Shown here piece by piece: positions 49-63,236 of a stretch of DNA of 64,000 nt (the stretch's first letter is position 1; each line of letters starts with the position of its first letter). The translations under genes were made by a program, and so were the position numbers. The stretch comes from Pollutibacter soli (GTDB taxonomy: Bacteria; Bacteroidota; Bacteroidia; Chitinophagales; Chitinophagaceae), in the NCBI GenBank assembly GCA_029269725.1, contig JARJHS010000001.1, positions 124,001-188,000 of the forward strand, given 5' to 3'. The notes under the pieces are model-generated. The model was not told the origin of the DNA. It worked only from the letters and a program-made list of their open reading frames with translations, and searched no databases.

Positions 49-76
49 TTCCACTTTTGACTTTCCACTTTTTGTC
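49..76. repeat. Period-7 intergenic array (TTCCACT type)
   Basis: Four consecutive heptamers in one register: TTCCACT, TTTGACT, TTCCACT, TTTTGTC. The array abuts the stop codon of the minus-strand cytochrome gene. It is one of many such arrays in the window with different unit sequences but the same period. Confidence 0.6.
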
Positions 77-2248
77 TTATTCAAAAAATAATTCATCGAT
101 AAATATCCATCCTTTCTGGCCTTTACCACCATGCCATTGAGGCAGCTTCTGAACATTAAGTGCATCAATTTGTATGTATTTGTAACTGCCTGGTTTGATA
201 TTGACCGCGTATGGCTTTATTCTCGCAGGTCCGTATTTAGTAGGCTGTTCCGGAATCAGCTGACCGATCTGAACAAGATGGGCAGAATCGTTTCCTCCTT
301 TGATTACAATTTTTTCCGGTGGGAAAAGGTACCCGCCGGTATTATCGGCAAGGCTTAAAGTAATTTTCGAAAGTTGTGTTGCCTCTTTGAAAGTTACCAC
401 CGCACCGAAAGGACGATCCCGGAAACCCAGCCAGTTCATGAGATTATTTCTGATATCTCCTTTTTCGTTATCGATCAGGTTATTTCCGCCTTCGAGAGCG
501 TATCGCGGATCTGGCGCATGCGTAAGTCTTACATCCACCGGACTTTTTCCAGAAACAAATAGTTGGTATTCACTGACAGGACTGCTATACCAGCCCGGTA
601 AAACTGCAATCGCTTTAATCGTCATCGGGCTGTCAATCCTGATCGGATCTTTATAAATAACGCCAGTAATACTATCAGGATCTTTACCATCTGTTGTAAA
701 TCTTATTATAGTGCCGGGCAGCGAATGTTTTAATATGACATCTCTTCCTTTCGCTACTACCAGTGTGTCAGGATTTTTAAGCTGCGGAGCTGTAAGCCTT
801 AATTTTTCAGCTGTATCAGGCACATACCCGCGATTCCATTTGACTAAAGGGAAGCGTTTGTTAAGATCTTTTACGGCATTGCTATCAACAGGCGTATTCC
901 AAAGAAATACTTCTTTTAAGGATGAGATCTCTTTAAGTTTTTCAAGATATTTTAAATCCACTTTTGTATTTGCAAGAGAAATCGATGTCAGTTTTTCGCA
1001 GGATTTCAGATCTGAAAAACCCGATCCTGTGATATCGGTTCCATTCAGTATAAGGTGTTCGAGGTTGTTGAAGGTGGCAATCTCTTTTAGCACATCATCT
1101 TTTACCGGCATATTGGAAAGATTGAGTCCAACAATCTGCGTTTTGATGGTTCGCAGCGCCGTGAGCATCTCCGGTTTGTAGTACGCACGAACAAAGAAAC
1201 TTACATTGAGCGCAGGTGAGTTTTTTGCGCGGGGACTGATTGTACGGAATGGGCTTACCAACTGCGCCAATATTTTTTCATCAGCAGCTGCAAAGGAGTA
1301 TGTTGTAGTATCGGTTATAATTTCATTTTCGGTCTGGATAAATCCTGCTGCCATTTTTCTCAGGCTGTCGTCAATGGCATATTCACGAAAAGTTTTCCTG
1401 GTATCTGCGCCATAGGAAATCCAGGTCTCGATTAAATTGATTTCAAGATCAGTCAGTTGCGGCTTGCCTTTCGGTGGCATATGTTTTTTCTCCGATGGAT
1501 CCATCATCACTCTCTGCATGATATGACTGTTGAGCGGATTACCGGCCACCCACAACGGACCATCCTTTCCACCTTTCAGCATGCGGTCGACATCAGTCAT
1601 CACCAGGTTCCCTTTTGCTTTTTTCTCATTGTGGCAGGAAAAACATTTTGCTTCAAGGATAGGAACGACTGCAGCTTCAAACACAGCGCTGCTATCAGAA
1701 TATACTCTTTGTTTTTTAACAACAACTTCTTCAACCTCCCCGCCGGTAAGAAAATCTTCACCGTGAGTGAGTGAACCCCCATAATGACTTCCCGCAATCA
1801 TGAATGCACATTCCAACAGAACAAGGCCGTTAATCAGTTTTGCATTAAACCACTGATATGTATAACCGAGCCAGATGAGGAAACAAAGGATAGCTGTTAC
1901 CGAACCTGTGATCAGATGGGTCTTAAGCAATTCCGGATCATAACCTCCTGCGATCGAAAGAAACAATCCTGTAAGCGCACTGATCGTGACAAAAAATGCA
2001 GCATGAAGGAGAATGAATCCAAATACATTGTCCATTGCATTATGATCACCAAAAGATTTTCTGAAAAATGCAAATACAGGAAGAAGGAGAATCAGTACAA
2101 TCGGGAAATGCAATAACAGCGGATGAAATCTGCCGCTTCCCTGCAACCATACAGGCACAGCAAGATGATCTTTAAACAACAGCAGGATGATCAGGATTCC
2201 CTGCAACAAAAAAACAAGGTTGGCAAGAATCGAACGATACGTTGACAT
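77..2248 (-). CDS. Membrane-anchored planctomycete-type cytochrome c protein with LRR-like and chitobiase-like domains
   Basis: Multi-domain protein of 723 residues. Residues 1-165 hold several hydrophobic segments resembling a DUF2231-like membrane domain. A single c-type heme site CxxCH lies at C202/C205/H206, with a downstream HMPPKG that can supply the axial Met, as in the planctomycete cytochrome C (PSCyt1) family. The middle has leucine-rich-repeat-like segments (around 345-440). A region resembling the chitobiase C-terminal domain follows (about 465-540), and the end looks like a discoidin-type sugar-binding fold. It is the last gene of a three-gene minus-strand operon, 41 bp after the DUF1501 gene. 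The domain calls are pattern-based. The substrate is unknown; a periplasmic, glycan-related redox or binding role is inference. The class call is secure, the function is not. Confidence 0.82.
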   Translation of the reverse strand: MSTYRSILANLVFLLQGILIILLLFKDHLAVPVWLQGSGRFHPLLLHFPIVLILLLPVFAFFRKSFGDHNAMDNVFGFILLHAAFFVTISALTGLFLSIAGGYDPELLKTHLITGSVTAILCFLIWLGYTYQWFNAKLINGLVLLECAFMIAGSHYGGSLTHGEDFLTGGEVEEVVVKKQRVYSDSSAVFEAAVVPILEAKCFSCHNEKKAKGNLVMTDVDRMLKGGKDGPLWVAGNPLNSHIMQRVMMDPSEKKHMPPKGKPQLTDLEINLIETWISYGADTRKTFREYAIDDSLRKMAAGFIQTENEIITDTTTYSFAAADEKILAQLVSPFRTISPRAKNSPALNVSFFVRAYYKPEMLTALRTIKTQIVGLNLSNMPVKDDVLKEIATFNNLEHLILNGTDITGSGFSDLKSCEKLTSISLANTKVDLKYLEKLKEISSLKEVFLWNTPVDSNAVKDLNKRFPLVKWNRGYVPDTAEKLRLTAPQLKNPDTLVVAKGRDVILKHSLPGTIIRFTTDGKDPDSITGVIYKDPIRIDSPMTIKAIAVLPGWYSSPVSEYQLFVSGKSPVDVRLTHAPDPRYALEGGNNLIDNEKGDIRNNLMNWLGFRDRPFGAVVTFKEATQLSKITLSLADNTGGYLFPPEKIVIKGGNDSAHLVQIGQLIPEQPTKYGPARIKPYAVNIKPGSYKYIQIDALNVQKLPQWHGGKGQKGWIFIDELFFE

Positions 2249-2289
2249 GAAGGTCTGCTCAGGGTTGATTTTAGAATAGGGTACTGTTA

Positions 2290-3741
2290 CTAGGCAAGAA
2301 TATCTTTCACAACGGTTCCCTCAACATCAGTAAGCCTGTACCGGCGACCCAGATGTCGATATGTAAATTGCTCATGACGCATGCCCAGCAGGTGCAACAT
2401 GGTCGCATGAAAATCATGCACACTTACCGGATCCTTCACGATATTATAGCCAAATTCATCAGTTTCTCCATAGGAAATTCCAGGCTTCACTCCACCGCCT
2501 GCCATCCAGATGGAAAAACATTTCGGATGATGATCCCTTCCGTAATTGTCTTTTGATAAATCGCCCTGACAGTAATTTGTTCTTCCGAATTCGCCACCCC
2601 AAACTACGAGTGTTTCATCAAGAAGTCCCCGTTGTTTAAGATCCTGCACCAATGCAGCAGAAGCGCGATCCACGTCCTGCGCCTGCAATGGCATTTCGCC
2701 AACAAGATTGCCATGCTGGTCCCATCCCTGGTGATACAATTGAACAAATCGAACCCCGGCTTCGGAAAGCTTACGGGCAAGCAGACAGTTTGCAGCGTAT
2801 GTACCTGGCACAAGACAATCAGCTCCATACATTTTTACGATATGGTCGGGCTCGCGGCTCAGATCTGTCAGCTCGGGCACTGCAGTCTGCATCCTGTACG
2901 ACATTTCATATTGCTGAATCTTAGTCTGAATTTCAGGATCGCCTGTTTTATCAAATGCCATGTTGTTCAGCTTTGCCAGTTCATCCAGCATATCCCTTCG
3001 GGACACTTTATCCTGGCCCTGTGGATTTTTCAGATACAGGACCGGATCTTCTCCGCTGCTGAAAACAACGCCCTGGTGAACACTATCAAGAAATCCATTG
3101 GTCCAAAGCTTGCTGTAAACACCTTGTCCGTTTCCACGACCGCGCGAAAGCAGTACACAAAATGCAGGGAGATTTTTATTATCACTTCCTAAACCATAAC
3201 TCATCCATGCACCCATACTTGGTCTGTTGCCCTGTTGTGCACCTGTCTGGAAAAAAGTAAGCGCCGGATCATGGTTAATGGCATCGGTATGGATAGTTTT
3301 TATCACACAGATATCATCGGCAATCCTGGCCATATTGGGAAACATCTCGCTCACCCATGTACCAGACTGACCATGCTGATCGAATTTAAATGCTGATCCC
3401 ACCAGTGGAAATTTTTTCTGGCCAGAAGTCATTCCTGTCAGGCGCTGACCCATGCGAACAGATGCAGGCAAATCCTGCCCCAGCATGTCAGCAAGCTTAG
3501 GCTTATAATCGAATGTTTCCAGTTGCGAGGGTGCACCGTTCTGAAAAAGATAGATGACTCTTTTCGCTTTTGGCGCAAAGTGGGGCAGGCCTGCTAACAA
3601 GGCCTGTGTGTCATCTTCCTTTTTGCCAAAAAGATCCGGTAACAAAAGCGATCCGAGCGCAACACCGCCGATTCCCAAACCGGCCTTTGTCAGGAAATGT
3701 CTTCTCGTGGTGTTTAGCCGGAATTTATTGAATTCGTCCAT
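2290..3741 (-). CDS. DUF1501 family protein, Tat-exported, sulfatase-like fold
   Basis: The 483-residue protein starts with a twin-arginine signal: R13-R14 in TTRRHFLTKAG, followed by a Gly/Ala/Leu-rich hydrophobic stretch, so export of a folded protein is likely. The body matches DUF1501, a family in the alkaline phosphatase / sulfatase superfamily (LFQNGAPSQLETFDYKP, WGGEFGRTNYCQG, GRDHHPKCFSIWMAGGGVKPG). The His/Asp-rich GRDHHP segment looks like a metal site. Only two bases separate it from the upstream DUF1549/DUF1553 gene, so the two are co-transcribed. The same pairing is common in planctomycetes. The enzymatic activity of the family is not established; hydrolysis of sulfated or phosphorylated glycans is only a guess. 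Confidence 0.88.
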   Translation of the reverse strand: MDEFNKFRLNTTRRHFLTKAGLGIGGVALGSLLLPDLFGKKEDDTQALLAGLPHFAPKAKRVIYLFQNGAPSQLETFDYKPKLADMLGQDLPASVRMGQRLTGMTSGQKKFPLVGSAFKFDQHGQSGTWVSEMFPNMARIADDICVIKTIHTDAINHDPALTFFQTGAQQGNRPSMGAWMSYGLGSDNKNLPAFCVLLSRGRGNGQGVYSKLWTNGFLDSVHQGVVFSSGEDPVLYLKNPQGQDKVSRRDMLDELAKLNNMAFDKTGDPEIQTKIQQYEMSYRMQTAVPELTDLSREPDHIVKMYGADCLVPGTYAANCLLARKLSEAGVRFVQLYHQGWDQHGNLVGEMPLQAQDVDRASAALVQDLKQRGLLDETLVVWGGEFGRTNYCQGDLSKDNYGRDHHPKCFSIWMAGGGVKPGISYGETDEFGYNIVKDPVSVHDFHATMLHLLGMRHEQFTYRHLGRRYRLTDVEGTVVKDILA

Positions 3742-3743
3742 AA

Positions 3744-6697: not shown

Positions 6698-6819
6698 CAG
6701 CAACGATACTTTCGGGCCCGATCTGATTTTCATTTTACTTAACTGCAGCGATCAGCTATTGACCAGCTGGCGGGCCGGTTTGAAGTGTCGTCATTTCTTC
6801 ACACTCTAAATTGTTTGTC

Positions 6820-8955: not shown

Positions 8956-8962
8956 TTAAAAA

Positions 8963-9001: not shown

Positions 9002-9002
9002 T

Positions 9003-14629: not shown

Positions 14630-14873
14630 GCTGGTTGTCGGATTGCCTGCCCTGCCTGCCGGACGGGCAGGCGGCAGGCAGGTTGTCAGTTGTCAGGAAC
14701 AACCTGTTGTCTTTCATCGCTGCTCGTTGTTCGTTGTCCGCAGCAGCCCTTTGTCATTCATCGTTTTCCGAATCAGGCGGTTTGTACCTCACCTGTCTTC
14801 GCCCATCGGGAAAGCTGGCTGTTCAAACGAGCAACGAACAACGAACAACGAGCAACGAACAACGAACAACAAG
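14630..14873. repeat. Inverted and period-7 repeat region between App1-like and MATE genes
   Basis: This fills the 317-bp gap. First comes an imperfect GC-rich palindrome (CTGCCTGCCGGACGGGCAGG core, 14650-14690), then GTTGTCA twice, then GCTCGTT, GTTCGTT near 14722-14740, and finally AACGAAC/AACGAGC heptamers at 14826-14873. The GTT-type and AAC-type arrays are reverse complements about 100 bp apart and could form a long stem. GGCTGTTCAAA sits at 14817-14827. The MATE reading frame stays open through this region but should not be read as coding. Confidence 0.8.
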
Positions 14874-19262: not shown

Positions 19263-19667
19263 TCAATATCTGTTTCTATCACGGTAAGAATCGCCACCGC
19301 CACCGCCGCGGTTGTAGCCACCACCGCCGCCGCCGCCACGTTGACCGCCTCCACCGCCTCCGCCACGATAGCCGCCTCCGCCACCACCCTGGTTACCACG
19401 GAAGCCACCGCCACCACCACCCGATGATCTTTCTTCAGCTTCTTTTACTACAAGTGGTTTCTTACCAAGCGAAATATCATTCAGATTATCAATGGCGTCC
19501 TTTGCTTCAACACTGTTTGGCATGTCAACAAAGCCGAAACCTCTGCTCTTGCCGGTCTCCTTGTCCATCGCAACTTTTGCGGTATTAACTTTTCCGAATT
19601 TCTCAAAAATTTCCATCAATTCGGCGTCATCCAGATCATAGGGAAGGCCGGCAACAAAAAGATTCAT
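19263..19667 (-). CDS. RRM-type RNA-binding protein with Gly-rich tail
   Basis: A 134-residue protein from the ATG of MNLFVAGLPYDL. A single RNA recognition motif occupies residues 1-80, with RNP2 LFVAGL and RNP1 SRGFGFVDM. It is followed by about 50 residues of Gly-rich, Arg-Gly-type low complexity ending YRDRNRY. The architecture equals the Rbp proteins of cyanobacteria and the RRM proteins common in Bacteroidota, which bind RNA globally and have been proposed to fill chaperone roles. The 5' end faces a 565-bp gene-free region. The tail is GC-rich because of consecutive Gly codons. Confidence 0.93.
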   Translation of the reverse strand: MNLFVAGLPYDLDDAELMEIFEKFGKVNTAKVAMDKETGKSRGFGFVDMPNSVEAKDAIDNLNDISLGKKPLVVKEAEERSSGGGGGGFRGNQGGGGGGYRGGGGGGGQRGGGGGGGYNRGGGGGDSYRDRNRY

Positions 19668-20232
19668 GTAAACGGTTTTTGTAAAAATAAGCAACTTCAG
19701 CCGTATTGCAGAATGGAACTTATACCATATTTGAAAATTATTTTTACTCCGTAATTATTACGTAGAAATGCGTTTTCTGCTTCGGGTTGTTGTCTTTTAC
19801 AGGAAGCCTTTTCCGAAAACAATCCTTTCTTCAATCGGGAATTAATGCCGGCGTTCATTTGTTAAAGAATCGGCCAACCTGAAAATTTTATTAAAATTTG
19901 GTTGTAAAAAATTTGCCTCACAAAATTTTCGGGTATAGAGCTTTACTCAACTATTCTGAGGCGAAATATGCCACAATACAGAATAGAAAAATTCACAAAT
20001 GCCAGTATGTTGCCCATCTGGTTAAACTAAGAAAATAGTCTAATCGTATTATTCAGATTTTAAGGCCTTAACCATCAATGTTAAAATCAGAATTCTGCGA
20101 ATACCTATGGCATATCGTTTGAAAGTTTTTAGGTGATTCTGGAGATTGACCTCCCGCGTTCGGCGCGCATCAGATATACATGGTAATGTCTGTGAGAAAC
20201 CTTTACAATTAAAATTATAAACACCTCAAGGT
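19668..20232. other. Gene-free divergent intergenic region
   Basis: 565 bp between the divergent RRM and CHRD genes with no convincing reading frame. It is AT-rich. A possible long-range stem pairs GCCTCA (19915-19920) with TGAGGC (19968-19973). It must hold both promoters, but no clear TTTG/TAnnTTTG pair was found. Confidence 0.5.
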
Positions 20233-27303: not shown

Positions 27304-27543
27304 AGGAAAAACAGAATACAGGAAGAAGAATACAGAATACAGGAAGAAATGCAATAGTGTACATCTGGCTACTAACTCTCCTGCCTGCTCACTCCTGCCT
27401 CCTCGCTGAACGAGAAACAGAAAACTGAAAACAGGGAAACGATACAGAAACAGAGAATACAGAATACGGAAAGAATTGGCCGCAGCACGAACTACTATAA
27501 ACTAATACTCCTGCCTCCATACTCCTGCATCCTGCCTGAATAA
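27304..27543. repeat. Composite period-7 array of 240 bp with alternating strand polarity
   Basis: Nearly the whole gap to pdhB is built of 7-mers. First come purine units (TACAGAA, TACAGGA, AGAAGAA), then pyrimidine units (CTCTCCT, GCCTGCT, CACTCCT, GCCTCCT), then purine units again (AGAAAAC, TGAAAAC, AGAATAC twice), then CTCCTGC, CTCCATA, CTCCTGC, ATCCTGC. Units differ but keep period 7 within each block. Confidence 0.85.
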
Positions 27544-27549
27544 ACATCA

Positions 27550-27581
27550 TTTGCTGGAATGATGAGCTTGCAATATTTTTG
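27550..27581 (+). promoter_or_regulatory. Bacteroidota-type promoter of pdhB
   Basis: TTTG at 27550-27553, a 20-bp spacer, then TATTTTTG at 27574-27581. This matches the Bacteroidota primary-sigma consensus TTTG-N19-21-TAnnTTTG at every defined base. The predicted start of transcription leaves a leader of only about 12 nt before the ATG at 27600. Confidence 0.65.
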
Positions 27582-28591: not shown

Positions 28592-28883
28592 TTAAAGTGG
28601 AAAGTTTGGGTCAAACGTTAAACGTAGAACGTGTAGCGAAAACCCCTGAATTCGTCGACTCGATTTGTTACGGAATTTTTGAGAAGCCAGTTTGAGTCGG
28701 TTCTCGGTTTCCCAAAAACTCAGTGAATAGATTTTTTACGACTGTTTAATTTACAAGCAATCAACTACGGACTTCTTCAAACTAAAAGCCGCCCGTTTCG
28801 AACAACGATGAACGAACAACCGGCTGTTCAAAACTGCCGACAGGCAGGCTAAGAACTAAGAACTAAGAACCAAGAACTTCTTA
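28592..28883. repeat. Two period-7 arrays in the pdhB-GH140 gap
   Basis: At 28592-28636 units TTAAAGT, GGAAAGT, TTGGGTC, AAACGTT, AAACGTA, GAACGTG run in one register. At 28798-28883 CGAACAA, CGATGAA, CGAACAA is followed by CCGGCTGTTCAAAA (28820-28833), a short inverted repeat around GCCGACAGGC, and CTAAGAA three times plus CCAAGAA. The 160 bp between the arrays has no gene-like frame. Confidence 0.8.
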
Positions 28884-28917: not shown

Positions 28918-30324
28918 ATGCACGCCAAAAAGAGATCTTTCGTTTCAATAAAATCTGTTTTTGTTTTCCTTCTGGTTCTTTCTATTCAGATTAATTCATA
29001 CGCACAGCTACGCGTAAGCGAAAATAAACGGTACCTGGTAGCCGAAAATGGAACGCCGTTTTTCTGGCTAGGCGATACAGCCTGGGAATTGTTTCATCGG
29101 TTGAACAGGGCGGAGGCCGACAAATATCTTGGTATCCGGGCTTCTCAGGGATTCACGGTGATCCAGGCGGTCGTGTTGGCTGAAATGGATGGCATCAATA
29201 CACCAAATGCATATAACGAGAAGCCGCTGGAAGATGCAGATCCCACAAAGCCGAGGGAGGCTTACTTCAAACATGTAGACTATATCATTGATAAAGCCGC
29301 TTCGCTGGGACTTTACATCGGTCTTTTGCCAACCTGGGGTGATAAAGTTTTTAAAGACAGATGGGGGGCGGGTCCTGAAGTTTTCAATCCAACAAATGCC
29401 AGGATTTATGGAGAATGGATCGGAAAAAGATATGCAGATAGAAAAAATATTATCTGGATTCTTGGTGGTGATCGTAATCCGAGAAATGACCAGGATATCG
29501 CTATCTGGAGGGCAATGGCTGCAGGAATAGAAGCAGGGGCAGGAGGAGCTGATAAGGCGTTAATGACATTCCATCCACAGCCGAATGATTTGCAGGATGC
29601 AGGTTCTGCAAAATGGTTTCATAATGATGCCTGGCTGGATTTCAATATGTTTCAGACAGGTCATTGCCGGGACAACCGCATCTGGGACAGATTGCAGGTG
29701 GCCTATAATCTGAAACCCACCAAACCTGTGATTGACGGGGAAACCCTTTACGAGGATCACCCGGTCTGTTTCAATGCGAAGGAGAATGGCATTTCAAGTG
29801 CCTATGATATCCGCAAACATGCATGGCTGGATGTAATGGCGGGAGGGTTTGGTCATACCTATGGATGCCATGATATCTGGCAAATGTATACGCCGGAGCG
29901 GGAACCGGTGAACGGTGCACATATTCCCTGGTATGAGGCAGTCAATCTGCAAGGCGCCTTACAAATGAAGTACCTGCGGAGATTGATTGAATCCAGGCCG
30001 ATGCTGGAAAGGGTACCGGATCAGACGATATTGAAAGAAAATTCGGCTGAGCATGACCGTATACAGGCTAGCAGGGGAAACAGTTATATCATCGTCTATA
30101 GTACGCAGGGAAAATCATTTGAACTTCAAACCGGGAAAATAAGCGGCTCAACCTATTCGGCTTTCTGGTACAATCCCAGGAATGGACAAACGCAATCCCT
30201 TCCGGCTGCAGACAATAAAAAGTCATTTGTGAAATTTCAGCCTCCCAGTAGTGATTATGGAAATGATTGGGTGTTGGTGGTGGATGATGCTTCAAAAAAT
30301 TATCCGGTACCAACGTCGCGGTAA
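28918..30324 (+). CDS. DUF4038 glycoside hydrolase (GH140-like)
   Basis: A 468-residue exported protein with signal peptide up to NSYAQ. The DUF4038 barrel shows FFWLGDTAWELFHRLNRAEADKYL, GFTVIQAVVLAEMDG, AASLGLYIGLLPTWGD, RYADRKNIIWILGGDRNP and KPVIDGETLYEDHP. A C-terminal beta domain (about 385-460) resembles the putative collagen-binding domain usually found after DUF4038. GH140 enzymes include the apiosidase of rhamnogalacturonan II degradation, so action on a plant polysaccharide side chain is likely. There is no SusC/SusD pair nearby, so this is not a classical utilisation locus. Confidence 0.88.
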   Translation: MHAKKRSFVSIKSVFVFLLVLSIQINSYAQLRVSENKRYLVAENGTPFFWLGDTAWELFHRLNRAEADKYLGIRASQGFTVIQAVVLAEMDGINTPNAYNEKPLEDADPTKPREAYFKHVDYIIDKAASLGLYIGLLPTWGDKVFKDRWGAGPEVFNPTNARIYGEWIGKRYADRKNIIWILGGDRNPRNDQDIAIWRAMAAGIEAGAGGADKALMTFHPQPNDLQDAGSAKWFHNDAWLDFNMFQTGHCRDNRIWDRLQVAYNLKPTKPVIDGETLYEDHPVCFNAKENGISSAYDIRKHAWLDVMAGGFGHTYGCHDIWQMYTPEREPVNGAHIPWYEAVNLQGALQMKYLRRLIESRPMLERVPDQTILKENSAEHDRIQASRGNSYIIVYSTQGKSFELQTGKISGSTYSAFWYNPRNGQTQSLPAADNKKSFVKFQPPSSDYGNDWVLVVDDASKNYPVPTSR

Positions 30325-32664: not shown

Positions 32665-32670
32665 ATAAAG

Positions 32671-32970
32671 CAGGAGGGAGGAGTAAGGAGGCAGGAGGCA
32701 GGAGGGTTAGTATTTAGTTGATAGAATCATGCGTGTTGTGACACATAGTTCCTGTATCCTGTATTCCGTATTCCAATTGAGTTGTCGGTTGTCAGAACAG
32801 TTACAGGACGTTTCTGTTAAATTTGCTATTCTTGCATTTGTGATACAGTTTTCAGTTTCGGCTGAGGCAGGAGATTTAAAATGTAAGCTTCAGTATCAAG
32901 CAAGCTGTTGTATTTTCTTCCTGTGTTCCGTATTCTATCTTTTTTCTCTGTTTTCTGTTTCTCTTCTACC
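32671..32970. repeat. Period-7 arrays between TonB receptor and DUF4846 gene
   Basis: Units GCAGGAG, GGAGGAG, TAAGGAG, GCAGGAG, GCAGGAG occur at 32671-32705. TATCCTG, TATTCCG, TATTCCA follow near 32755, AGTTGTC and GGTTGTC near 32780, and TCTTCCT, GTGTTCC, GTATTCT, TTTTCTG near 32915-32965. The last block reaches the stop codon of the DUF4846 gene. GCAGGAG is the reverse complement of CTCCTGC in the array at 27.4 kb. Confidence 0.8.
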
Positions 32971-36724: not shown

Positions 36725-37210
36725 ATGGAAAAAAAACAAAAGCTGATTCAATACACTTCTTATACATCAATCGATGAACTGGGAAAGGATGATCAATGGC
36801 TGCTGAATGAAGCGAGATCACAAACCAGCTTGTCTTATGCACCATATTCCAACTATCATGTAGCTGCTGTAGCACGAATGGATAGCGGTGAAATCATTCA
36901 TGGTACTAACCAGGAGAATGCATCTTTTCCTGTTGGCCTTTGCGCCGAACGCGTATTACTTGCGGCTGTTTCTTCTGTTTGTCCTGGTGAATCAATTGAT
37001 ACGCTTGCAGTGAGCTACGATAACCACCGCGACGGAAGCGATCATCCCGTGGCACCTTGCGGAATCTGCCGTCAGAGTCTTGCCGAATTCGAAGACAGGA
37101 TGAAACACCCGGTGAGACTAATCCTGAGCGGAATGAAAGGCGAAGTGTTTGTATTTGAATCCGCTAAAAGCTTATTGCCATTTGCTTTTGAAGGAACCGA
37201 ATTGCGTTGA
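36725..37210 (+). CDS. cdd: Cytidine deaminase
   Basis: A 161-residue protein from MEKKQKLIQYTSYTSIDELG. The zinc site is complete: CAE in GLCAERVLLAAVSS (Cys ligand and catalytic Glu) and PCGICRQSLAEF (two Cys ligands). It deaminates cytidine and deoxycytidine to uridine forms in pyrimidine salvage. The length is slightly above the usual 130-140 because of the N-terminal extension. It sits downstream of lepB in the same direction. Confidence 0.93.
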   Translation: MEKKQKLIQYTSYTSIDELGKDDQWLLNEARSQTSLSYAPYSNYHVAAVARMDSGEIIHGTNQENASFPVGLCAERVLLAAVSSVCPGESIDTLAVSYDNHRDGSDHPVAPCGICRQSLAEFEDRMKHPVRLILSGMKGEVFVFESAKSLLPFAFEGTELR

Positions 37211-37379
37211 ACGTTAAACGTAGAACGTAGAACGTGAGCGCTTGCGATTTTTTGGCGGATGATTGTCCGGAAGATTTTTCCCGTCCTACGAATTACCGGA
37301 AAGAAACAATTGCAATTCAGCAGGTTCTTTCACTCATGGGTTATTACGTTTGACGTTGAACGTATAACGTTCAACCTAA
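37203..37379. repeat. Period-7 arrays between cdd and the efflux operon
   Basis: Units GTTGAAC, GTTAAAC, GTAGAAC, GTAGAAC start inside the last codons of cdd. A second block at 37342-37376 has TTACGTT, TGACGTT, GAACGTA, TAACGTT, CAACCTA and reaches the stop codon of the TolC gene. The 100 bp between has no gene. Confidence 0.8.
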
Positions 37380-38680
37380 TAGATCATCACTTCTCCCGCC
37401 AGCAATTGAATATTCGTCGCTGCGAGTTTTGCCCGATACTGTGCATTGATATAACGGTCACGCGCATCTGTTAAGCTCAGTTGCGCCTGCCTGAGTTCGA
37501 TGGAATTACTTTGCAGTTTTCTGAATCTTTCAGTTGCAATAAAGTTGTTCTCTTCTGCAATGTCAACATTCTTTTTTTCTACTTCAGCAACACGCAGTGC
37601 TGTCAGGTATTCCTGGAAAGCAACATGCAGGTCACTTTGAATCTGTGTTCGAAGCAGATCGGTTTGTAACTGTTGTTGTTTAAGCTGCACCTCATTGACA
37701 CGCAACTGGGTTTTTACAATATTGCTGTTAAAAATAGGAACCGCCAGCCCTATACCTATATTGGGGCCGTAGGTAAGATTGGTAAGGAAGAAACCTGCAG
37801 AAGCGACATTTCGGTTATAGTTGGTCACACTGGTAAGACTGAGAACAGGCAGTCTTTGAGCATTGATGATTCTTCTGTCCTGCAGCAATACTGCTCTGTC
37901 GCGCTGCGCAAGTAGCAGCTGAAAATTCTGTGTATCTGCCCGTGCAGTATAGTCTTTCAATGATATCGGCTGAATCAGAACTGCAGTGTCTGCTGCATCG
38001 ACTGGTTGTTCGGGTTCACGTTTGAGAAGATTGTTAAGAATGATTTTAGTCTGGCGGATTTGCTGTTGGAGATTTTCGAGTACTATTTTTTGTGCATTCA
38101 GATCTATTTCAGCCTGGAGCATGTCTGTTTTCGCAGCACTACCTACATTAAATCTTGTTTCAGCTATTTTGAAGCGTTCTTCAGATAAAGCAATAATGCC
38201 GGAAGTAGCCTGCACCTGCTGATGCAATCGCACGAGGTTATAATATACGATAAGCACATCGTAGCTCAGTTGCGTTACTTCCTGTCTGAATGCGATCTCG
38301 CCAATTTTCTCCAGTTCTTTGAAGCGTTCTTTAGTGGCAACAACACGCATACCGTTATACAACCTCCAGTTCACCGAAAGGTTAGCAGAAAGAATATTGT
38401 TGGTAGCTCCCTTACTGACGATCTCGTTACCATTGGTTAACTTCTGATTGATATTGGTAAATGCTTCAGTATTGGAAATGCCCGCAGTAATTACCGGCCA
38501 CCTGCCGGCATTACCCCAGTTGTTATTGATTTTTGCAATATCGATATCTGCCCTGGCAATCTGAACCCTTAGGTTATTCTGAATGGCCATATCCAATACC
38601 TGCTGCGCAGTAAGTAAACTATCCTGCGCACTGACACCAACACTAATGATCAGACTTATGAACAAGAGGCTCCTCTTCAT
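37376..38680 (-). CDS. TolC-family outer-membrane efflux protein
   Basis: A 434-residue protein from MKRSLLFISLIISVGVSAQ, a signal peptide. Two outer-membrane efflux repeats form long helices (VLDMAIQNNLRVQIARADIDIAKINNNWG, RFKIAETRFNVGSAAKTDMLQAEIDLNAQKIVLENLQQQIRQT, and again ERFRKLQSNSIELRQAQLSLTDARDRYINAQYRAKLA). It is the exit duct of a tripartite RND pump. Its start lies 38 bp inside the 3' end of the RND gene, so translation is coupled. It is the last gene of the efflux operon. Period-7 repeats abut its stop codon. Confidence 0.93.
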   Translation of the reverse strand: MKRSLLFISLIISVGVSAQDSLLTAQQVLDMAIQNNLRVQIARADIDIAKINNNWGNAGRWPVITAGISNTEAFTNINQKLTNGNEIVSKGATNNILSANLSVNWRLYNGMRVVATKERFKELEKIGEIAFRQEVTQLSYDVLIVYYNLVRLHQQVQATSGIIALSEERFKIAETRFNVGSAAKTDMLQAEIDLNAQKIVLENLQQQIRQTKIILNNLLKREPEQPVDAADTAVLIQPISLKDYTARADTQNFQLLLAQRDRAVLLQDRRIINAQRLPVLSLTSVTNYNRNVASAGFFLTNLTYGPNIGIGLAVPIFNSNIVKTQLRVNEVQLKQQQLQTDLLRTQIQSDLHVAFQEYLTALRVAEVEKKNVDIAEENNFIATERFRKLQSNSIELRQAQLSLTDARDRYINAQYRAKLAATNIQLLAGEVMIY

Positions 38681-44691: not shown

Positions 44692-45030
44692 CTAACCGAT
44701 TTTCATTCCATTGGTTACTTTCATACCCGGTTGAAGAAGAATGACATCTTTTTCTTCATTATATACTCCCAGCACCAGGCATTCGCTGAAAAAATTGCCG
44801 ATCTGTTTTACAGGAAAATTCACAACAGCGATAATTTGTCTTCCTGTCAACTCATCTGGTGAATAGAATTTGGTGATCTGTGCCGATGATTTTTTAATTC
44901 CCAGATCACCAAAATCGATTTGTAATTTATATGCAGGTTTTCTTGCATTCGGAAATGTTTCCGCGCTTATTATCGTACCAACACGCATATCTACTTTTTC
45001 AAAATCTTCCCACGAAAGTTCATAGTTCAT
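44692..45030 (-). CDS. csaA: CsaA-like tRNA-binding domain protein (export chaperone)
   Basis: A 112-residue single OB-fold protein: DFEKVDMRVGTIISAETFPNARKPAYKLQIDFG, SSAQITKFYSPDELTGRQIIAVVNFPVKQIGNFFSECLVLG. This is the CsaA / tRNA-binding domain family, a dimeric secretion-related chaperone in Bacillus. The start codon and the next codons (MNYEL) are made from the heptamer ATGAACT repeated three times, so the ATG at 45030 has out-of-frame ATGs 7 bp apart upstream. Choice of start is based on the family N terminus. Confidence 0.92.
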   Translation of the reverse strand: MNYELSWEDFEKVDMRVGTIISAETFPNARKPAYKLQIDFGDLGIKKSSAQITKFYSPDELTGRQIIAVVNFPVKQIGNFFSECLVLGVYNEEKDVILLQPGMKVTNGMKIG

Positions 45031-45243
45031 AGTTCATATTTTGAACAGCCGGTTTACTGTTTCTCTTTCTGTTTCTGTTTCTACATAACAGTTAACCTGA
45101 TTTTTTATTACAGTTTTCAGTTTTCGGTTTTCAGTTTTCAAAAGCTGTATTCTGATCTCCCAAAAATACGGCTGTTTCACTATGAACTACGAACTATGAA
45201 CTATGACTACTGTAAACATTCAATCTTCAACTTTCAACTCCCT
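45015..45243. repeat. Inverted pair of period-7 arrays upstream of csaA
   Basis: On the plus strand AGTTCAT is repeated three times at 45018-45038 and overlaps the csaA start. TTTTGAACAGCCGG (45039-45052) follows, then a period-6 TGTTTC tract, then CAGTTTT, CAGTTTT, CGGTTTT, CAGTTTT (about 45113-45140). The reverse-complement block ACTATGA, ACTACGA, ACTATGA, ACTATGA lies at 45179-45206. The outer arrays are inverted copies about 140 bp apart. CTTCAAC, TTTCAAC closes the region. Confidence 0.85.
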
Positions 45244-50086: not shown

Positions 50087-50158
50087 CATTTCCCTATCGC
50101 ACTTCCTACTTCGTCCTTCATACTTCGTCCTTCATACTTCGTCCTTCCCAAATCCGTC
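50087..50158. repeat. Period-7 array overlapping the 3' end of the LuxR pseudogene
   Basis: Units CACTTCC, TACTTCG, TCCTTCA, TACTTCG, TCCTTCA, TACTTCG, TCCTTCC run without a break. The last codons of the frameshifted LuxR gene and its stop at 50118 are within this array, so repeat growth has altered or replaced the original C terminus. Confidence 0.85.
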
Positions 50159-51456: not shown

Positions 51457-51567
51457 GCTAATGCTTATGCTGGTCGCAAGCAATTGCTGTGGGATGGGAA
51501 AAATATGAAGATTACTAATTTTGAACCGGCGAATTTGTTTGTGAAAAGAGAATACAGGAAGTTCTGA
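51457..51567 (+). pseudogene. Orphan 3' tail of a Gfo/Idh/MocA oxidoreductase gene
   Basis: An in-frame 36-codon segment reads ANAYAGRKQLLWDGKNMKIT then NFEPANLFVKREYRKF and a TGA. It matches the last 35 residues of the oxidoreductase at 45282-46700 (SAYAGRKQLLWDGKNMRITN...) with four substitutions, while the DNA differs at many third positions. Upstream of 51457 the frame has no similarity. It is the relic of a second paralog whose body was deleted or replaced at a sharp breakpoint. Confidence 0.85.
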
Positions 51568-51600
51568 GTACAAAGTTGAAAGTTCAAAAATGCAACTTCA
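51568..51600. repeat. Short period-7 array (GTTGAAA type)
   Basis: GTACAAA, GTTGAAA, GTTCAAA, AATGCAA directly follow the stop codon of the orphan oxidoreductase tail. Confidence 0.5.
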
Positions 51601-56809: not shown

Positions 56810-57192
56810 ATTGTATCATTTGTGTTTTTTGACAATAGTTAACCATGCAGTGCTACCACTGCAAATAATTGTGAATCTGACTATAACCAGACTGCAAGAT
56901 TTTATCCGGGCAGGAAAATGGTGTGCTACTTTCAGGTATAGAGTAAGGGTATCTGAAAATCTTTACAAATGAAAAGCTCGTGGTAAGCCGAAGAAATACA
57001 GATCTCATGAGTCAAGTGACTCCGAAGCTATTCAGTTTTAGAAATGGAAATTAGTGAGTATAAAATTTCAGGGCGCGAGAATTCAACAATGGTCCGGAGA
57101 GTACAAAAGAATTTCTTTATTTGAAGACGACAGTATGAATATAGAAATTTTAAATTTAAAATAAAAATAATTTCTGAAAGTGAAATAATTAT
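56810..57192. other. Upstream region of S74 operon
   Basis: 383 bp without a gene. It must hold the operon promoter; no exact TTTG/TAnnTTTG pair was found on the minus strand. A small inverted repeat GCAGTG...CACTGC lies at 56848-56865. Confidence 0.45.
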
Positions 57193-57633: not shown

Positions 57634-57740
57634 TGTACAATGGTTTTAAAGTGATCTTAATTTTAAAGGACGATAAACAAAGTAATTATCTTCCGGGATA
57701 AAGCTATTGTAATTCTGCGTCAACCAATTGTAAAAATGCG

Positions 57741-58571: not shown

Positions 58572-58995
58572 TTGGATAAAAATAGGAATACTATATTACG
58601 AGATCATTTTGTAAAAGATGACTTTTCTTTAATTATTAGTCCTGAGGTTAAGTCGTAAGAGTCGTTTTTCGGGAGTTTGGTGACGCCCGGGACATAGGGA
58701 TACTATGTCACAATACTATGAGCAAATCAGACCTGAAATTTCAAACAGCTGATAGGCTAGGTGGCCCAGATTGCAATTCTTCAGATGATACGTTATGCTC
58801 AGCTTTATCAGCGAGATCATGTTCAGTCTGGCCATCTGGAAAAATGGCGGGCATTATTTTGTATCCCGGTATTAAAATCCGTCTCATCCTTGCAGACACG
58901 AATTTTTAAATCTATATTTATAAGCCGTCTACCTACCTCCTGACGACTGCTTAGAATTCAAGGTCCTGAATTATTAATCCCGCTTAACCTTGTTT
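58572..58995. other. Divergent intergenic region with small inverted repeat
   Basis: 424 bp between the AraC-type gene and the metalloprotease gene. Short open frames here have no recognisable content. GACATAG / CTATGTC with loop GGATA at 58691-58709 is a possible operator for the AraC regulator. Confidence 0.45.
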
Positions 58996-61900
58996 ATGAG
59001 AAGGATTTTACCCTTGATTCTATTCGTGTCGTTGTCAATAATTTCCGTTTATTTTAATAGTGCAAACGCCCAGGAAATGCTCATCGAGGCTGATCCGGTA
59101 AGCGCCGCTGGTTTCCAGGTTACCCTGAGTTCGAAATTCCGCTCCTGGAATACATATCTGCTTAAAAAGAGGTTCAGTACTCCTTCCATTCAGACTACCC
59201 GCCAGGTGAGAATGAAACTTGGTACTGATGAAATGGTTTTCACTGGCACTCATCATCCCATTACGGATAGTCGGTCCAGGCTGGTGAGGCTGGAAGGTGG
59301 CGTTCGCACGGAATTTCCATTCCCCGAATTGCTGTACCTCAACGGCCCAAATTCCCGGCTAACCATTGGTGAAAATTTTATACTTGGAGAGAGCAGTTTA
59401 AACGGCGAAGTATATCTACTGGAAAATCTGCGGAATATTGATCCATCTGCCCCGGAAAATGTGTTGATCAGGTACAGGAAATCTGATGTGATTGCTGACA
59501 GGAATGTATACTGCGATGTTTTACCGAACAAACAATTGACGAGGGAAAATAAAACTACCCCCAACTTAAAAACCACCGGTGCAGCAGGAATTTGCAAGAC
59601 AACTGAAATCGCAGTGTTGGCCAATTCCACCACATTTTCGGCTCATAATAATAGCCTGAATACCACTGCCACTTATATTGCTTCGATATATAATCTGAGC
59701 GAAGGGGATTACCAGGATGAATTTACATATGATTTGCAGTTTCATATCACCGAGCTGGTGGTAAGCGTAACAGCTCATGCAAATCCATGGGCCGCTACTG
59801 ATGATATTTATGTCAACCTCAATAATTTTAACATCATCGGTGGCGATTATTTCAAATCGTCAAATGATCTCAGTTCTTTCTGGTTCAGTACCAAAAATTT
59901 TACCGGCGGAGTTGTCGGCCTGGCGTATCTCGGGTTTACCTGTACGGCTGGGGGCGATGCTGCCATCCGCGAATATGGTGTTTCTGCTCAGTCAATGAGG
60001 TGTTTGTTGAGTCATGAACATGGTCACAATTTCAGCATGGATCATGATGCACCGGGAGCACAATTTATTATGGCGCCGTCAGTGAATCCATCAAATGTGG
60101 ATTTCAGTCAATTCAGTAAAAATGCTTTTGAAAACTGGTTTGCTTCCGGACAGGCGGCATGTATTACCAATTGCGACGCCGATGTATGTGATGGCTCGGC
60201 ACCGGAATTGCTAAGCATCGTTTCAAATCCGTTAACTGGAAATATCGATGCTAAATGGCTGAATGAAGAAGGACTGAAAGGGTATATCGTGCGTTGGAAA
60301 GAAAAGAGCCAACCTGTTTTCCAGGCTGATACACTCGGTGCTGCTGCTGCTGGTCATACCATCATCATCGGCTGTGGAAATGCAAGAAACTACCGGGTAG
60401 AGGTAGCCGAAATTTGTGCCAATGGTAATATCGGAGAATTCAGAGGTGCAGAATTAATAAACCTCGCTATTCCGGCAATCGCACCAAATAAACCCACGAG
60501 TTTCTGTACTGGCGGAGATGTAACACTCACATCAACTATCGCTGGCGGTAATCAGTGGTACAAGGACAATAAAATAATCCCAGGCGCAACAGCAAGAACA
60601 TATATTGCCACGGCAAGCGGAGTCTATACTGTGAAGCTGACAATAGGCGGATGTATCCGGACTTCAGATCCGGTGACCGTCACTGTTTCTGCATTTCCGG
60701 TTAAGCCGGTTATCTCTGTTTCAGGTGGCGCTATTGTGTGTACAGGTGCTAAGGTGACGCTGACTTCAACAGCTGCTGCCGGCAATCAATGGTTGAAAAG
60801 CGGTGCGCCGATTGCCGGAGCTACGGCAAGGACTTATCTGCCGACAGTAACGGGAACCTATACTGTAAAAACTACGAATGCAGGAGGATGCGCGGCAGTA
60901 TCTGATCCTGTGACTATTACTATTAACCCATTGCCTCCTGTTCCTTTGGTTACTGCCAGCGGTTCTTTAAAATTATGTCCAGGTACAAGTGTGATCCTGA
61001 CATCAAATGCTGCAGCGGGAAATCAATGGTACAAGGATAACGTGATCATCTCCGGCGCTACAGCAAAAACGTATAAAGTAGTTGGAGCCGGAACTTATAC
61101 CGTCAAAGTAACAAATTCTTCTAATTGTGTTTCCACATCCCTGGCAACAAGGGTGACTTACTCAGATAATCCACCTGTTCCGGTGATAACAGCGAGCGGA
61201 CCATTGGGTATCTGTGCAGGTTCATCGGTTACATTCACCTCAAGTGCACTATCTGGAAATCAATGGTATTTCAATGGTGTTGCTATTGCAGGAGCTATTG
61301 CGCGGACTTACAAGGCAACGTCAGCCGGAAGATACTCTGTACGCGCAACGAACGCCGGAGGTTGCTTTGCTAACTCACTCGTATCGACGGTTATCGTGTA
61401 TGCCTTACCGGCAGTACCTGCGATTGTACCCGCTGGTCCGGTAACCATATGCCCAGCTACGGAGATCACCCTTACCAGTGCTGCAGCAACAACATATCAA
61501 TGGTACAGGAACAGTATAATTATAGCAGGAGCGACGGGGAGAACTTATAAGGCCAATGCTACGGGGCGCTACACCGTTACTGTAGGTAACGTTTATGGTT
61601 GTAAAGCCACATCACTTCCAGTGACAGTGACGGTAGGTACAAACCCTGCGAAACCGCTTGTAAAAGCGAGCGGTCCTTTGAGTATTTGCTTAGGTAAAAC
61701 TGTTACCCTGACAAGTAATACAATTACAGGAAATCAGTGGTACAAGGATGGTAAATTGTTACCGGACTCCATTGGAAAATCAATTGTCGTTTCTACCCAG
61801 GGTAAGTATCTGTTGAAAGTAAGTAATGTAACAGGATGCGCAACTGCATCGGATACATTTGCTGTGGTGGTAAATCCATTACCGGTGGCTCCGAGAATAA

Positions 61901-62832
61901 CTTCCAGCGGTGCACTCACATTCTGCAGCGGTAAATCAATTACCCTGACATCAGGTTCATTGACAGATAATCAATGGTACAAAAATGATGTTGCTTTGGT
62001 TGGCGAAACGACAAACAAACTGGTAGTAAACAATTCCGGTAATTACAGGGTAGTTGTTACCAATGCCAGCGGATGTACAAACACTTCAATTACATCGGTC
62101 GTAACAGTAAATCCTTTACCAGCAATTCCGGTGGTCACAGCACAGGGTTCACCCGCAATTTGTGCAGGAGGAAAAGTTGAGCTCAGTTCGAGTGCTGATG
62201 AAGGAAATCAATGGCTTAAAAACGGTGTAGCAATAGCAGGAGCGACAGCAAAAATTTACGAAGCAACAACCGCAGGGCAATTCTCAGTAAAAGTAACCAA
62301 TGCGAGCAATTGCAGCATCGTTTCTACTGCGGTTACTGTTGTAGTAAACGCACTTCCTGCGAAACCAATAGTGACAAAAGTTGGCAATGTTCTTACTGCA
62401 ACGGCGGGACATGCTGCTTACGCGTGGTATAAAGACAATACGCTTATTCCGGACGCAACCAGTAATGTTTATACAACTACTGAACCGGGAACCTACCAGG
62501 TAGTTGTAACAAACGTCAGCGGATGTACTGCAACATCTGCGGATATCGTGATAGCGTCACCTGCAGTAAACATACATGGTACAGGCATTCTCGCGGAACT
62601 CAGGGCTTATCCTAATCCTGCACGTGATCAGGTTCAGATCAGGTATGATCCGGCTATCGGTAAAAAGTGTACCATAAGAGTATACGACAGGTTTGGTAAG
62701 CTTATGCTAACAACAATTATGAAAGGAGCGATTCATTCACTGTCTACTTCAACCTTGCCATCAGGTGTTTACCAGGTCATTGTTTCAGATGGAACCAGGA
62801 CTGTTAATACCAAAATTGTGATTGCACGCTGA
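58996..62832 (+). CDS. Surface metalloprotease with nine Ig-like repeats and T9SS sorting domain
   Basis: A 1278-residue protein from the ATG (a TTG start two codons earlier is less likely), with signal peptide to ANAQ. Residues about 30-390 hold a reprolysin-like zinc protease: HEHGHNFSMDHD with H340, E341, H344, H350 and the downstream Met turn IMAPSVN. A fibronectin-type or Ig-like domain follows (SAPELLSIVSNPLTGNIDAKWL). Then come nine Ig-like repeats of about 80 residues, each with the GNQWYKDN...GATARTY...GxYTVKV...GC pattern (about 495-1200). The T9SS type A domain ends it (LRAYPNPARDQVQIRYDP, STLPSGVYQVIVSDG, TKIVIAR). It is secreted across the outer membrane and likely degrades proteins at the surface. 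The repeats are similar enough to recombine. Confidence 0.92.
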   Translation: MRRILPLILFVSLSIISVYFNSANAQEMLIEADPVSAAGFQVTLSSKFRSWNTYLLKKRFSTPSIQTTRQVRMKLGTDEMVFTGTHHPITDSRSRLVRLEGGVRTEFPFPELLYLNGPNSRLTIGENFILGESSLNGEVYLLENLRNIDPSAPENVLIRYRKSDVIADRNVYCDVLPNKQLTRENKTTPNLKTTGAAGICKTTEIAVLANSTTFSAHNNSLNTTATYIASIYNLSEGDYQDEFTYDLQFHITELVVSVTAHANPWAATDDIYVNLNNFNIIGGDYFKSSNDLSSFWFSTKNFTGGVVGLAYLGFTCTAGGDAAIREYGVSAQSMRCLLSHEHGHNFSMDHDAPGAQFIMAPSVNPSNVDFSQFSKNAFENWFASGQAACITNCDADVCDGSAPELLSIVSNPLTGNIDAKWLNEEGLKGYIVRWKEKSQPVFQADTLGAAAAGHTIIIGCGNARNYRVEVAEICANGNIGEFRGAELINLAIPAIAPNKPTSFCTGGDVTLTSTIAGGNQWYKDNKIIPGATARTYIATASGVYTVKLTIGGCIRTSDPVTVTVSAFPVKPVISVSGGAIVCTGAKVTLTSTAAAGNQWLKSGAPIAGATARTYLPTVTGTYTVKTTNAGGCAAVSDPVTITINPLPPVPLVTASGSLKLCPGTSVILTSNAAAGNQWYKDNVIISGATAKTYKVVGAGTYTVKVTNSSNCVSTSLATRVTYSDNPPVPVITASGPLGICAGSSVTFTSSALSGNQWYFNGVAIAGAIARTYKATSAGRYSVRATNAGGCFANSLVSTVIVYALPAVPAIVPAGPVTICPATEITLTSAAATTYQWYRNSIIIAGATGRTYKANATGRYTVTVGNVYGCKATSLPVTVTVGTNPAKPLVKASGPLSICLGKTVTLTSNTITGNQWYKDGKLLPDSIGKSIVVSTQGKYLLKVSNVTGCATASDTFAVVVNPLPVAPRITSSGALTFCSGKSITLTSGSLTDNQWYKNDVALVGETTNKLVVNNSGNYRVVVTNASGCTNTSITSVVTVNPLPAIPVVTAQGSPAICAGGKVELSSSADEGNQWLKNGVAIAGATAKIYEATTAGQFSVKVTNASNCSIVSTAVTVVVNALPAKPIVTKVGNVLTATAGHAAYAWYKDNTLIPDATSNVYTTTEPGTYQVVVTNVSGCTATSADIVIASPAVNIHGTGILAELRAYPNPARDQVQIRYDPAIGKKCTIRVYDRFGKLMLTTIMKGAIHSLSTSTLPSGVYQVIVSDGTRTVNTKIVIAR

Positions 62833-62882
62833 TAGGATGTGATCTGAGAGCAATTTTCATTATTGAGATAATCCAAAAACTG

Positions 62883-62916
62883 ATTGCCTGCCGGGAACGG
62901 CGGGCAATTTTTTTTT
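62883..62916 (+). terminator. Terminator after metalloprotease gene
   Basis: An 11-bp stem ATTGCCTGCCG / CGGCGGGCAAT (one G-T pair) with loop GGAA and nine T residues. Confidence 0.88.
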
Positions 62917-62932
62917 AAAGTGAGAGAAGAAG

Positions 62933-63236
62933 AAGATAAGAGTTGTAGGTTTTAAGTTGTAAGTTATCTTTTGCGAATGTAACATTCATTTGTTCTGAAG
63001 AAGATGGAAATGATTATATCCTGATAGTAACCTTTTTTTAGGCACTCTGAATGGTGAATATGAAATAATATCGGACGGGTGGAGGTAAATGTAGAAAGTC
63101 AGCAGATCAATTTGGCAGCAGAATTTTATGACACATTGCTCATTCGTAGGACGGCTGTTACTATTGCCTACTAACTACTGCCTATTGCCTTTAACGTCTG
63201 CTGTCTACCGTCTACCGTCTTCTTCATCAAAGGTCA
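62933..63236. repeat. Period-7 arrays before the transglutaminase-like gene
   Basis: First AGTTGTA, GGTTTTA, AGTTGTA, AGTTATC (about 62940-62970). Then at 63164-63226 CTATTGC, CTACTAA, CTACTGC, CTATTGC, CTTTAAC, GTCTGCT, GTCTACC, GTCTACC run in a single register although two unit families are involved. The 190 bp between the blocks has no gene. Confidence 0.85.

Follow-up and report, generated by a model that had tools for sequence, protein, structure and literature searches.

The 64,000-nucleotide stretch analysed here (the window) covers positions 124,001 to 188,000 of contig JARJHS010000001.1 of Pollutibacter soli (Chitinophagales, Chitinophagaceae), and the gaps between its protein-coding genes (among them a cytidine deaminase, a TonB receptor and a MATE gene) hold short imperfect tandem arrays, mostly of heptanucleotides. 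An initial annotation of the window had noticed these arrays and proposed that their units are unrelated and share one period. We argue below that the arrays probably serve as arms, or terminal inverted repeats, in a kind of small intergenic element whose design is related to that of the intervening sequences (IVS) known from 23S rRNA genes.

Period-7 arrays in intergenic DNA

Tandem Repeats Finder returned 47 rows for the window, of which 18 had period 7 and confirmed the places named in the initial annotation, save that the array at 45052-45082 has period 6. Strict segments (score of at least 12) in the intergenic DNA of the window comprised eight of period 7, one of period 6 and none of the other periods from 4 to 13. 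In a larger P. soli (G000) sample, made up of the window and sixty 20-kb stretches (1.264 Mb in total), 56 intergenic arrays had period 7, one had period 6 and one period 9, with 0 at periods 4, 5, 8 and 10-13; the arrays of period 14 (34) and 21 (20) are harmonics. Over the first 464 kb of this sample, 31 intergenic period-7 arrays were present and none of 20 dinucleotide shuffles produced any, while the coding DNA of the same portion (402.5 kb) held four. The autocorrelation of P. soli intergenic DNA peaked at lag 7 (0.302), lag 14 (0.292) and lag 21 (0.282), with 0.285 at lag 3 and 0.260-0.275 at the remaining lags between 2 and 30; coding DNA displayed no rise at lag 7. The period-7 intergenic arrays are thus real, and both an excess at lag 7 over shuffled sequence and the occurrence of arrays throughout the sampled genome, on which the initial annotation had staked its proposal, are present. 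A lag-7 peak was also found in contiguous stretches of G039 (0.299) and G089 (0.298), genomes of another family; it was not found in 220 kb of G065 (0.274), which carried five period-7 and five period-8 arrays. Among 80 named loci of related Bacteroidota, nine had a period-7 array (16 arrays), and the other periods detected there were 8 (three arrays), 9 (one), 11 (two) and 13 (one).

Unit families and register

The arrays are not independent microsatellites, as a small set of unit families recurs: the commonest canonical units among the 56 P. soli arrays were AACAACG (10), AACTATG (9), AAACGTT (8), AAGTAGT (4) and AACGTTC (4). Across the whole P. soli genome, five consecutive AACN4 units had 585 overlapping matches, as compared to 101 for the reversed pattern; of the 119 genomes examined in the order, 78 matched the forward pattern at least once. 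A period-8 version was matched in 38 of the 119 and a period-6 version in 37 (both with 0 matches in P. soli), many of the listed matches to the latter being (AAC)n runs. The period-8 matches in G065 and G039 are real arrays, and in G065 they repeatedly show one layout, in which a minus-strand match is followed 50-450 bp later by a plus-strand one. The number of AAC cores per array falls off steadily in P. soli (87 arrays with three cores, 54 with four, 13 with five, 10 with six and 7 with seven), where long perfect arrays such as (CTAACAA)11 also exist. In the AACYCGN family, 17 of 23 arrays in G039 and 10 of 14 in G089 have exactly five cores.

The claim that unrelated units have a common period was borne out in P. 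soli (56 arrays of period 7 versus 2 for periods 4-6 and 8-13 together), as was the change of family without a break in register: the array at 63161-63223 (CTATTGC CTACTAA CTACTGC CTATTGC CTTTAAC GTCTGCT GTCTACC GTCTACC GTCTTCT) passes from one family to another within a single register. We also accept the accompanying argument that slippage of unrelated seeds alone predicts neither the common period nor the kept register. Two other points found no support. The data do not favour a unit that simply differs at each place, since a limited set of families recurs and many arrays are arms of inverted pairs that lie at intergenic edges and bracket genes for the 23S rRNA intervening-sequence protein (IVP/S23; see below); and they do not favour one fixed step of 7 nt throughout, since period 8 occurs in the same architecture in other genomes. 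A protein with 7-bp spacing, one of the possibilities raised in the initial annotation, may still account for the period, and the IVP is a concrete candidate for it. These period-8 families of other genomes of the order rule out a strictly universal 7-nt step, so that the period (7 here, 8 for some families elsewhere) is a property of the element family.

Placement at gene edges and inverted pairing

For sixty P. soli arrays, the median distance to the closest gene edge was 22 nt, whereas placing them at random within their gaps gave 55.5 nt (p 1.7e-6), and half of them fell within 20 nt of an edge (21% for random placement). They often abut stop or start codons, the latter being approximate since genes were called as greedy longest open reading frames (ORFs). 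Composition follows the edge: left-edge arrays were G-rich in 29 cases, C-rich in 9 and tied in 6, right-edge arrays C-rich in 38, G-rich in 6 and tied in 2 (p 8e-9 for the opposite bias of left and right). In the array-centred g31 stretches, which are biased through having been picked around array matches, GTT arrays occupied the left edge in 18 of 22 cases and AAC arrays the right edge in 15 of 16. A reading of the arrays as a transcript-sense signal only was rejected, as edge placement fits better; the two overlap, inasmuch as a bias sense-upstream combined with one sense-downstream amounts to the same rule.

The two halves of a gap tend to be complementary. In P. soli, left and right halves matched as inverted repeats (score of at least 30) in 24 of 453 gaps (5.3%) versus 0.13% for halves of different gaps, and the corresponding figures were 23 of 180 versus 0.67% in G039, 9 of 139 versus 0.29% in G089 and 14 of 162 versus 0.25% in G065. 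Two pairs stand out in the window: 45017-45206 (element A, score 40), for which the predicted RNA fold of 45010-45215 has a z of -7.0 and about 30 arm base pairs, and 37205-37375 (element B, score 35), with a z of -4.0 for the predicted fold of 37200-37380. We discarded the idea that the left and right arms of a gap are exact copies, as by eye their unit order in the g31 arrays is only partly alike.

Other palindromic sequences were encountered alongside. Another dispersed palindromic family of P. soli, AACCTGGCAGGTTTAAGACCTGCCAGGTT-like, occupies intergenic gaps (e.g. C32:392535-392785), and at L113:19780-20000 tandem palindromic elements (AGAGCCGTAGGCTC and AGCCGCGGAATTTATTCCGCGG) adjoin a heptad array. 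In the same genome, L101:18730-19240 holds an RNase P RNA-like sequence, right after which ACGTTTA/TAAACGT heptads form a nearly perfect palindrome. In G039, a gene (C1:82202-82654, L217) that presumably encodes a transposase of the type associated with repetitive extragenic palindromes (TnpA_REP/RAYT) sits between the two copies of a 75-bp inverted repeat (score 125).

Intervening-sequence protein genes between the arms

Within a period-8 arm pair of G065 lies a 136-codon ORF that belongs to PF05635, the "four helix bundle protein" family that includes the intervening-sequence protein of 23S rRNA (IVP/S23). A search of ten genomes gave 54 PF05635 matches (8 in P. soli), from which 39 loci were taken up and 36, in nine genomes, were used (L262 and L272 were dropped as sub-threshold matches and L283 for want of an open frame). 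Flanking inverted repeats with a score of at least 30 surrounded 21 of the 36 IVP genes, as compared to 13 of 588 control genes (Fisher 5e-21); the controls came from four genomes, and the IVP genes of these four alone gave 14 of 21. By genome, the counts were 3/7 in P. soli, 2/2 in G039, 3/3 in G089, 6/9 in G065, 3/3 in G053, 3/4 in G097, 1/2 in G107 and 0/3 in each of G029 and G069. The arms had a median of 35 bp, and the arrays in IVP flanks numbered 21 of period 7, 20 of period 8 and one each of periods 6 and 9 (0.58, 0.56 and twice 0.03 per gene, with 0 for other periods), against 0.21 (period 7) and 0.04 (period 8) per control gene. Among the 80 Bacteroidota loci, all three IVP genes had heptad or octad arms (scores 28, in Solitalea longa, 49 and 50).

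An example in P. soli is G000:C4:6666-7309 (L097/L264), where a 116-codon IVP gene lies between TATTAGTTGTTAGTTGTTGGTTCATAGTTCATAGTTAACAGCC and its near-perfect complement, both of which touch the stop codons of the neighbouring genes; the region is predicted to form a 45-bp outer stem with the IVP in the loop (z -4.4, 20 shuffles). Its protein matches 2gsc (Xcc0516, E 2e-22) and 2rld, and according to the part of PMC4990558 drawn on here, Xcc0516 forms a homopentamer whose subunits are four-helix bundles. At P. soli C1:85060-85652, a decayed IVP is enclosed by AGTTCAT and ACTATGA arms, which belong to a family of the window. At the level of genomes, at least five heptad-pattern matches (the AACN4 pattern and its reversed-pattern control summed) were present in 64 of 100 genomes of the order with an IVP and in 2 of 19 without.

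Among close relatives, arms resemble one another when their IVPs do. For 14 between-genome pairs of IVPs at different loci with more than 45% identity, the arm cosine was 0.369, as compared to 0.159 for pairs at 40% or less (p 0.0036, arms permuted within genomes); the automatic rule assigned no arm to four of the 36 IVP genes, which are outside these tests. GTCC-type arms occur in G039, G107 and G065 around IVPs that are 61-70% identical, and GGTTGAT-type arms in G039 and G065 around IVPs with 40% identity.

Comparison of corresponding sites points to gain, loss or replacement, and at two of them the IVP gene of one sister species is missing from others. Between the two genes of the L265 site lie 603 bases, IVP included, in G107, and 142, 142 and 145 bases in G053, G089 and G039, the gaps of G053 and G089 containing a match to an AACYCGN array; in G100, a single near-full-length alignment runs through the site, which suggests that the element is present. 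The L257 site spans 470 bases and includes an IVP in G039, and the gaps of G053 (203 bases), G089 (194) and G100 (271) each retain an AACCAAT-like array at one edge. One gene pair encloses different IVPs (39% identical) with different arms in G053 and G089. Where G039 and G089 have conserved neighbouring genes, pairs 77, 92 and 96 carry arrays in just one of the two species, and the arrays at pair 70 belong to different families.

Some further IVP genes occupy like positions. Those of L253 and L254 (G029 and G069, two families) lie just upstream of a thiolase-like gene, are 48% identical and have different short arms; those of L270 and L271 (G089 and G053) lie at the same place and are 55% identical, and the former shares 71% identity with a second IVP of G089, with which it has ATTTGAAA-like arms in common.

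Array places in the window

The array places of the window were compared with the arms of P. soli IVP loci (Table 1), and 9 of 21 places matched arms, belonging to five loci, at p values of 0.031 or lower, uncorrected. Beyond this automatic comparison, the AACGAAC family was also recognized by eye to the left of the IVP gene G000:C34 (L285), and CTATTGCC-type heptads to the right of the IVP gene of L284.

Table 1. Array places of the window, with arms and elements as putatively assigned; p values of the comparison with IVP arms are uncorrected for 21 tests.
Feature	Position	Sequence and setting	Comparison with tested IVP arms
Element A, left arm	45017-45052	(AGTTCAT)3 and inner motif GAACAGCC; period-7 row; inverted-repeat score 40 with right arm	G000:C4 (L097/L264), score 52, p 0.002
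Element A, core	45053-45167	No IVP gene; period-6 GTTTCT (45052-45082), period-7 CAGTTTT (45111-45140)	
Element A, right arm	45168-45206	GGCTGTTTC and (ACTATGA) heptads	G000:C4, score 51, p 0.002
Element B, left arm	37205-37235	AACGTTN/AACGTAG heptads; overlaps cytidine deaminase stop codon (gene ends 37210); inverted-repeat score 35	L256, p 0.010
Element B, right arm	37343-37375	ACGTTTG ACGTTGA ACGTATA ACGTTCA heptads; abuts OEP gene	L256, p 0.0077
Composite intergenic region, four arrays	27304-27578	ACAGAAT (27311-27342); CTCCTGC (27378-27404, 27505-27537); AAACAGA (27415-27472)	Both CTCCTGC arrays: L274, p 0.010 and 0.0077; ACAGAAT and AAACAGA: no match
GCAGGAG array, putative solo arm	32670-32705	7 nt after TonB-receptor gene	L274, p 0.019
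TCCTGTA array	32750-32764		No match
CTAAGAA array	28849-28878	Upstream of gene starting at 28918	Resembles L264, p 0.015
GTTGTCA array	14682-14696		Resembles arms around IVP remnant G000:C36 (L283), p 0.031
AACGAAC array	14826-14870	Just upstream of probable MATE gene start	
CTTCGTC/CTTCATA array, solo	50102-50147	Convergent gap	No significant match
AAGTTCA array, solo	51559-51588		L264, p 0.0455
AGTTGTA array	62941-62965	Near left edge of gap 62833-63273	
Nine heptads, one register	63161-63223	CTAYTGC, then GTCTACC family; towards right edge of gap 62833-63273	Automatic test, p 0.07 and 0.30
TTCCACT array	49-71	GGCTGTTCC before it; 5 nt from end of minus-strand gene 77-2248	No significant match

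At gathering thresholds, Rfam gave no match in the window. Apart from the arrays, the minus-strand ORF at 19263-19694 carries one of the five RRM_1 matches of the P. soli genome (G000:C1:143452-143661), and its far end bears a CCACCGCC-type repeat. The EF-G2 protein gene of the window shares 84% identity with that of a Sphingobacteriales MAG (Ww30), and the matches that follow are mostly from Chitinophagaceae.

Relation to known systems

Neither IVS with an S23p gene nor heptamer arrays (TAACTGA repeats, long simple sequence repeats) are new, as the consulted parts of the literature make plain. The 23S rRNA IVS is known to carry an S23p ORF, to form a stem and to be excised by RNase III, and that of Coxiella burnetii has terminal inverted repeats, an imperfect stem of about 28 bp and a PF05635 ORF (as given in the part of PMC4990558 used here). 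The elements described above likewise have inverted arms around a PF05635 ORF (median 35 bp versus a stem of about 28 bp): terminal inverted repeats were found at 21 of 36 IVP loci, with predicted folds in agreement, and the ORF lies in the loop at IVP loci such as G000:C4, though in none of the window elements. Unlike the rRNA IVS, those studied here lie between protein genes and not inside a 23S rRNA gene, have many copies and arm units of 7 or 8 nt, and mostly lack the gene. TAACTGA repeats, reported from Beggiatoaceae, Cyanobacteria and five Bacteroidetes (PMC4679880, in part), are likewise intergenic heptamer direct repeats, in Maribeggiatoa mostly adjoining start codons; they differ in having one fixed unit in direct repetition, and the portion of that source consulted makes no mention of inverted pairs with an S23/IVP gene. 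Units of 7 nt also predominate among long simple sequence repeats (Mrazek et al. 2007, as relayed in part by PMC4679880), which are treated as slippage products, whereas the present arrays are paired, placed at edges and partly of fixed length.

Miniature inverted-repeat transposable elements (MITEs), and repetitive extragenic palindromes and bacterial interspersed mosaic elements (REP-BIME), resemble the present elements as small dispersed units with inverted arms and many copies, mostly without a gene; here, the arms have an internal period, and neither a transposase nor a target-site duplication was established. A MITE has its terminal repeats in common with an autonomous element of its genome; the 9 of 21 window places that match arms of P. 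soli IVP loci (p uncorrected) would be comparable if the IVP elements were autonomous. Finally, PF05635 proteins resemble, and are homologous to, the Avd protein of diversity-generating retroelements (according to the part of PMC10053308 drawn on), from which the present system differs in that no PF00078 (RVT_1) reverse transcriptase match was found in five of the ten genomes (P. soli, G039, G089, G107 and G069). A reverse transcriptase acting in trans was accordingly rejected, since its absence from P. soli means that an enzyme of that family is not needed. In the open-access literature searched, we found no link of intergenic heptamer arrays to PF05635.

An IVS-like origin of the arrays and its alternatives

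Taken together, these observations are best read, with fair though not full confidence, as meaning that the window arrays are arms of IVS-like elements and of their gene-less derivatives. What was computed in favour of this reading comprises the period, the recurring families, the edge placement, the complementary pairing and the bracketing of IVP genes, together with the likeness of arms among related IVPs, the presence/absence sites and the one decayed IVP between arms of a window family. A complete element would consist of an arm of about 4-6 heptads, a core with the IVP/S23 gene and a complementary arm, and arms and gene would spread as one unit. Most copies, those of the window included, would lack the gene and persist as short inverted pairs in some cases and as solo arms in many, the gene-less pairs being derivatives of complete elements. 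By analogy with the rRNA IVS, the transcript may form a hairpin from which the loop is cut out, and a trans-acting factor that recognizes the arm units, with the IVP as a candidate, may account for the common period.

Several results weigh against this interpretation. The window yielded neither an IVP gene nor a remnant of one, and 12 of the 21 window places matched no tested arm at 0.031 or below (three at 0.0455, nine without a match). A hidden Markov model search of 135 array-bearing intergenic regions found an IVP in only one, the sole region with an IVP remnant having fallen below the array threshold and thus outside the 135. Flanking repeats with a score of at least 30 were lacking at 15 of 36 IVP genes (four of seven in P. 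soli and all six of G029 and G069), some inverted pairs of P. soli belong to other repeat families, and direct repeats of the same score occurred in 14 of its 453 gaps. Over all between-genome pairs, arm similarity and IVP identity were uncorrelated (rho 0.03, p 0.24), and the arm-similarity signal is therefore confined to close relatives. The C/G-skew edge bias was not significant in the unbiased, contiguous stretches of G039 and G089 (p 0.23 and 0.10), and genome size and kinship may confound the genome-level association of IVPs with arrays. The gap sequences, read at one site without a systematic search, established no target-site duplication.

It is doubtful, although conceivable, that the arms are instead independent intergenic hairpins (devices of RNA processing or termination) in which IVP genes have settled as passengers. 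Such a view would account for the many arms without an IVP, for their position at stop and start codons and for the good folding of the predicted stems (z -7.0, -4.4 and -4.0), but it leaves unexplained why related IVPs at different loci and in different genomes have arms more alike than expected, and why genomes with at least five matches are so much more frequent among those with an IVP (64/100) than among those without (2/19).

Plain replication slippage, in which the polymerase favours 7-nt steps, units are arbitrary and their recurrence reflects biased mutation, appears improbable. Mrazek et al. 2007 (as cited in the part of PMC4679880 consulted) found heptanucleotides to be the commonest class of 5-11 nt in most repeat-rich genomes and proposed a contact length of DNA polymerase as the reason, and both the steady fall in P. 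soli core numbers and perfect arrays such as (CTAACAA)11 are what slippage would produce. The mode of five cores in the AACYCGN arrays of G039 and G089 is unlike a slippage distribution; moreover, slippage explains neither period 8 in the same architecture of other genomes nor the complementary pairs and their bracketing of IVP genes. That a regulator which binds RNA or DNA attaches to the arrays in the leaders and trailers of mRNAs (a role proposed for TAACTGA repeats), with the period as its binding step, would suit their abutting of start and stop codons, a strand bias readable as C-rich sense-upstream and G-rich sense-downstream arrays, and the RRM proteins of 93 of 119 genomes of the order, but is very unlikely given that array-rich G089 has no RRM_1 match (on which ground RRM proteins were rejected as a common cause), that arrays occur in one sister species and not in the other beside the same genes, and that no common function of the neighbouring genes was seen in the window.

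Within the IVS-like interpretation, we put forward as a speculative and rather improbable extension that the element's own protein sets the period: an IVP ring (relatives are homopentamers) would hold single-stranded arm RNA or DNA, with one short core per protomer. Any unit at a spacing of 7 or 8 nt would then serve, families would diversify together with their IVPs, five cores would be favoured, and many solo arrays of Bacteroidota would be footprints of the IVP process. The five-core mode in g31 fits the idea of a pentamer; the falling distribution of P. soli gives no call for it.

If the arrays are indeed arms of IVS-like elements, then a kind of sequence generally set aside as simple repeats would turn out to be what is visible of a dispersed IVS-like element, and the common period of unrelated units would have a concrete and checkable reason. 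Furthermore, the function of the S23/IVP proteins and the spread of IVS would become testable on hundreds of intergenic copies, free of the constraints that rRNA imposes.

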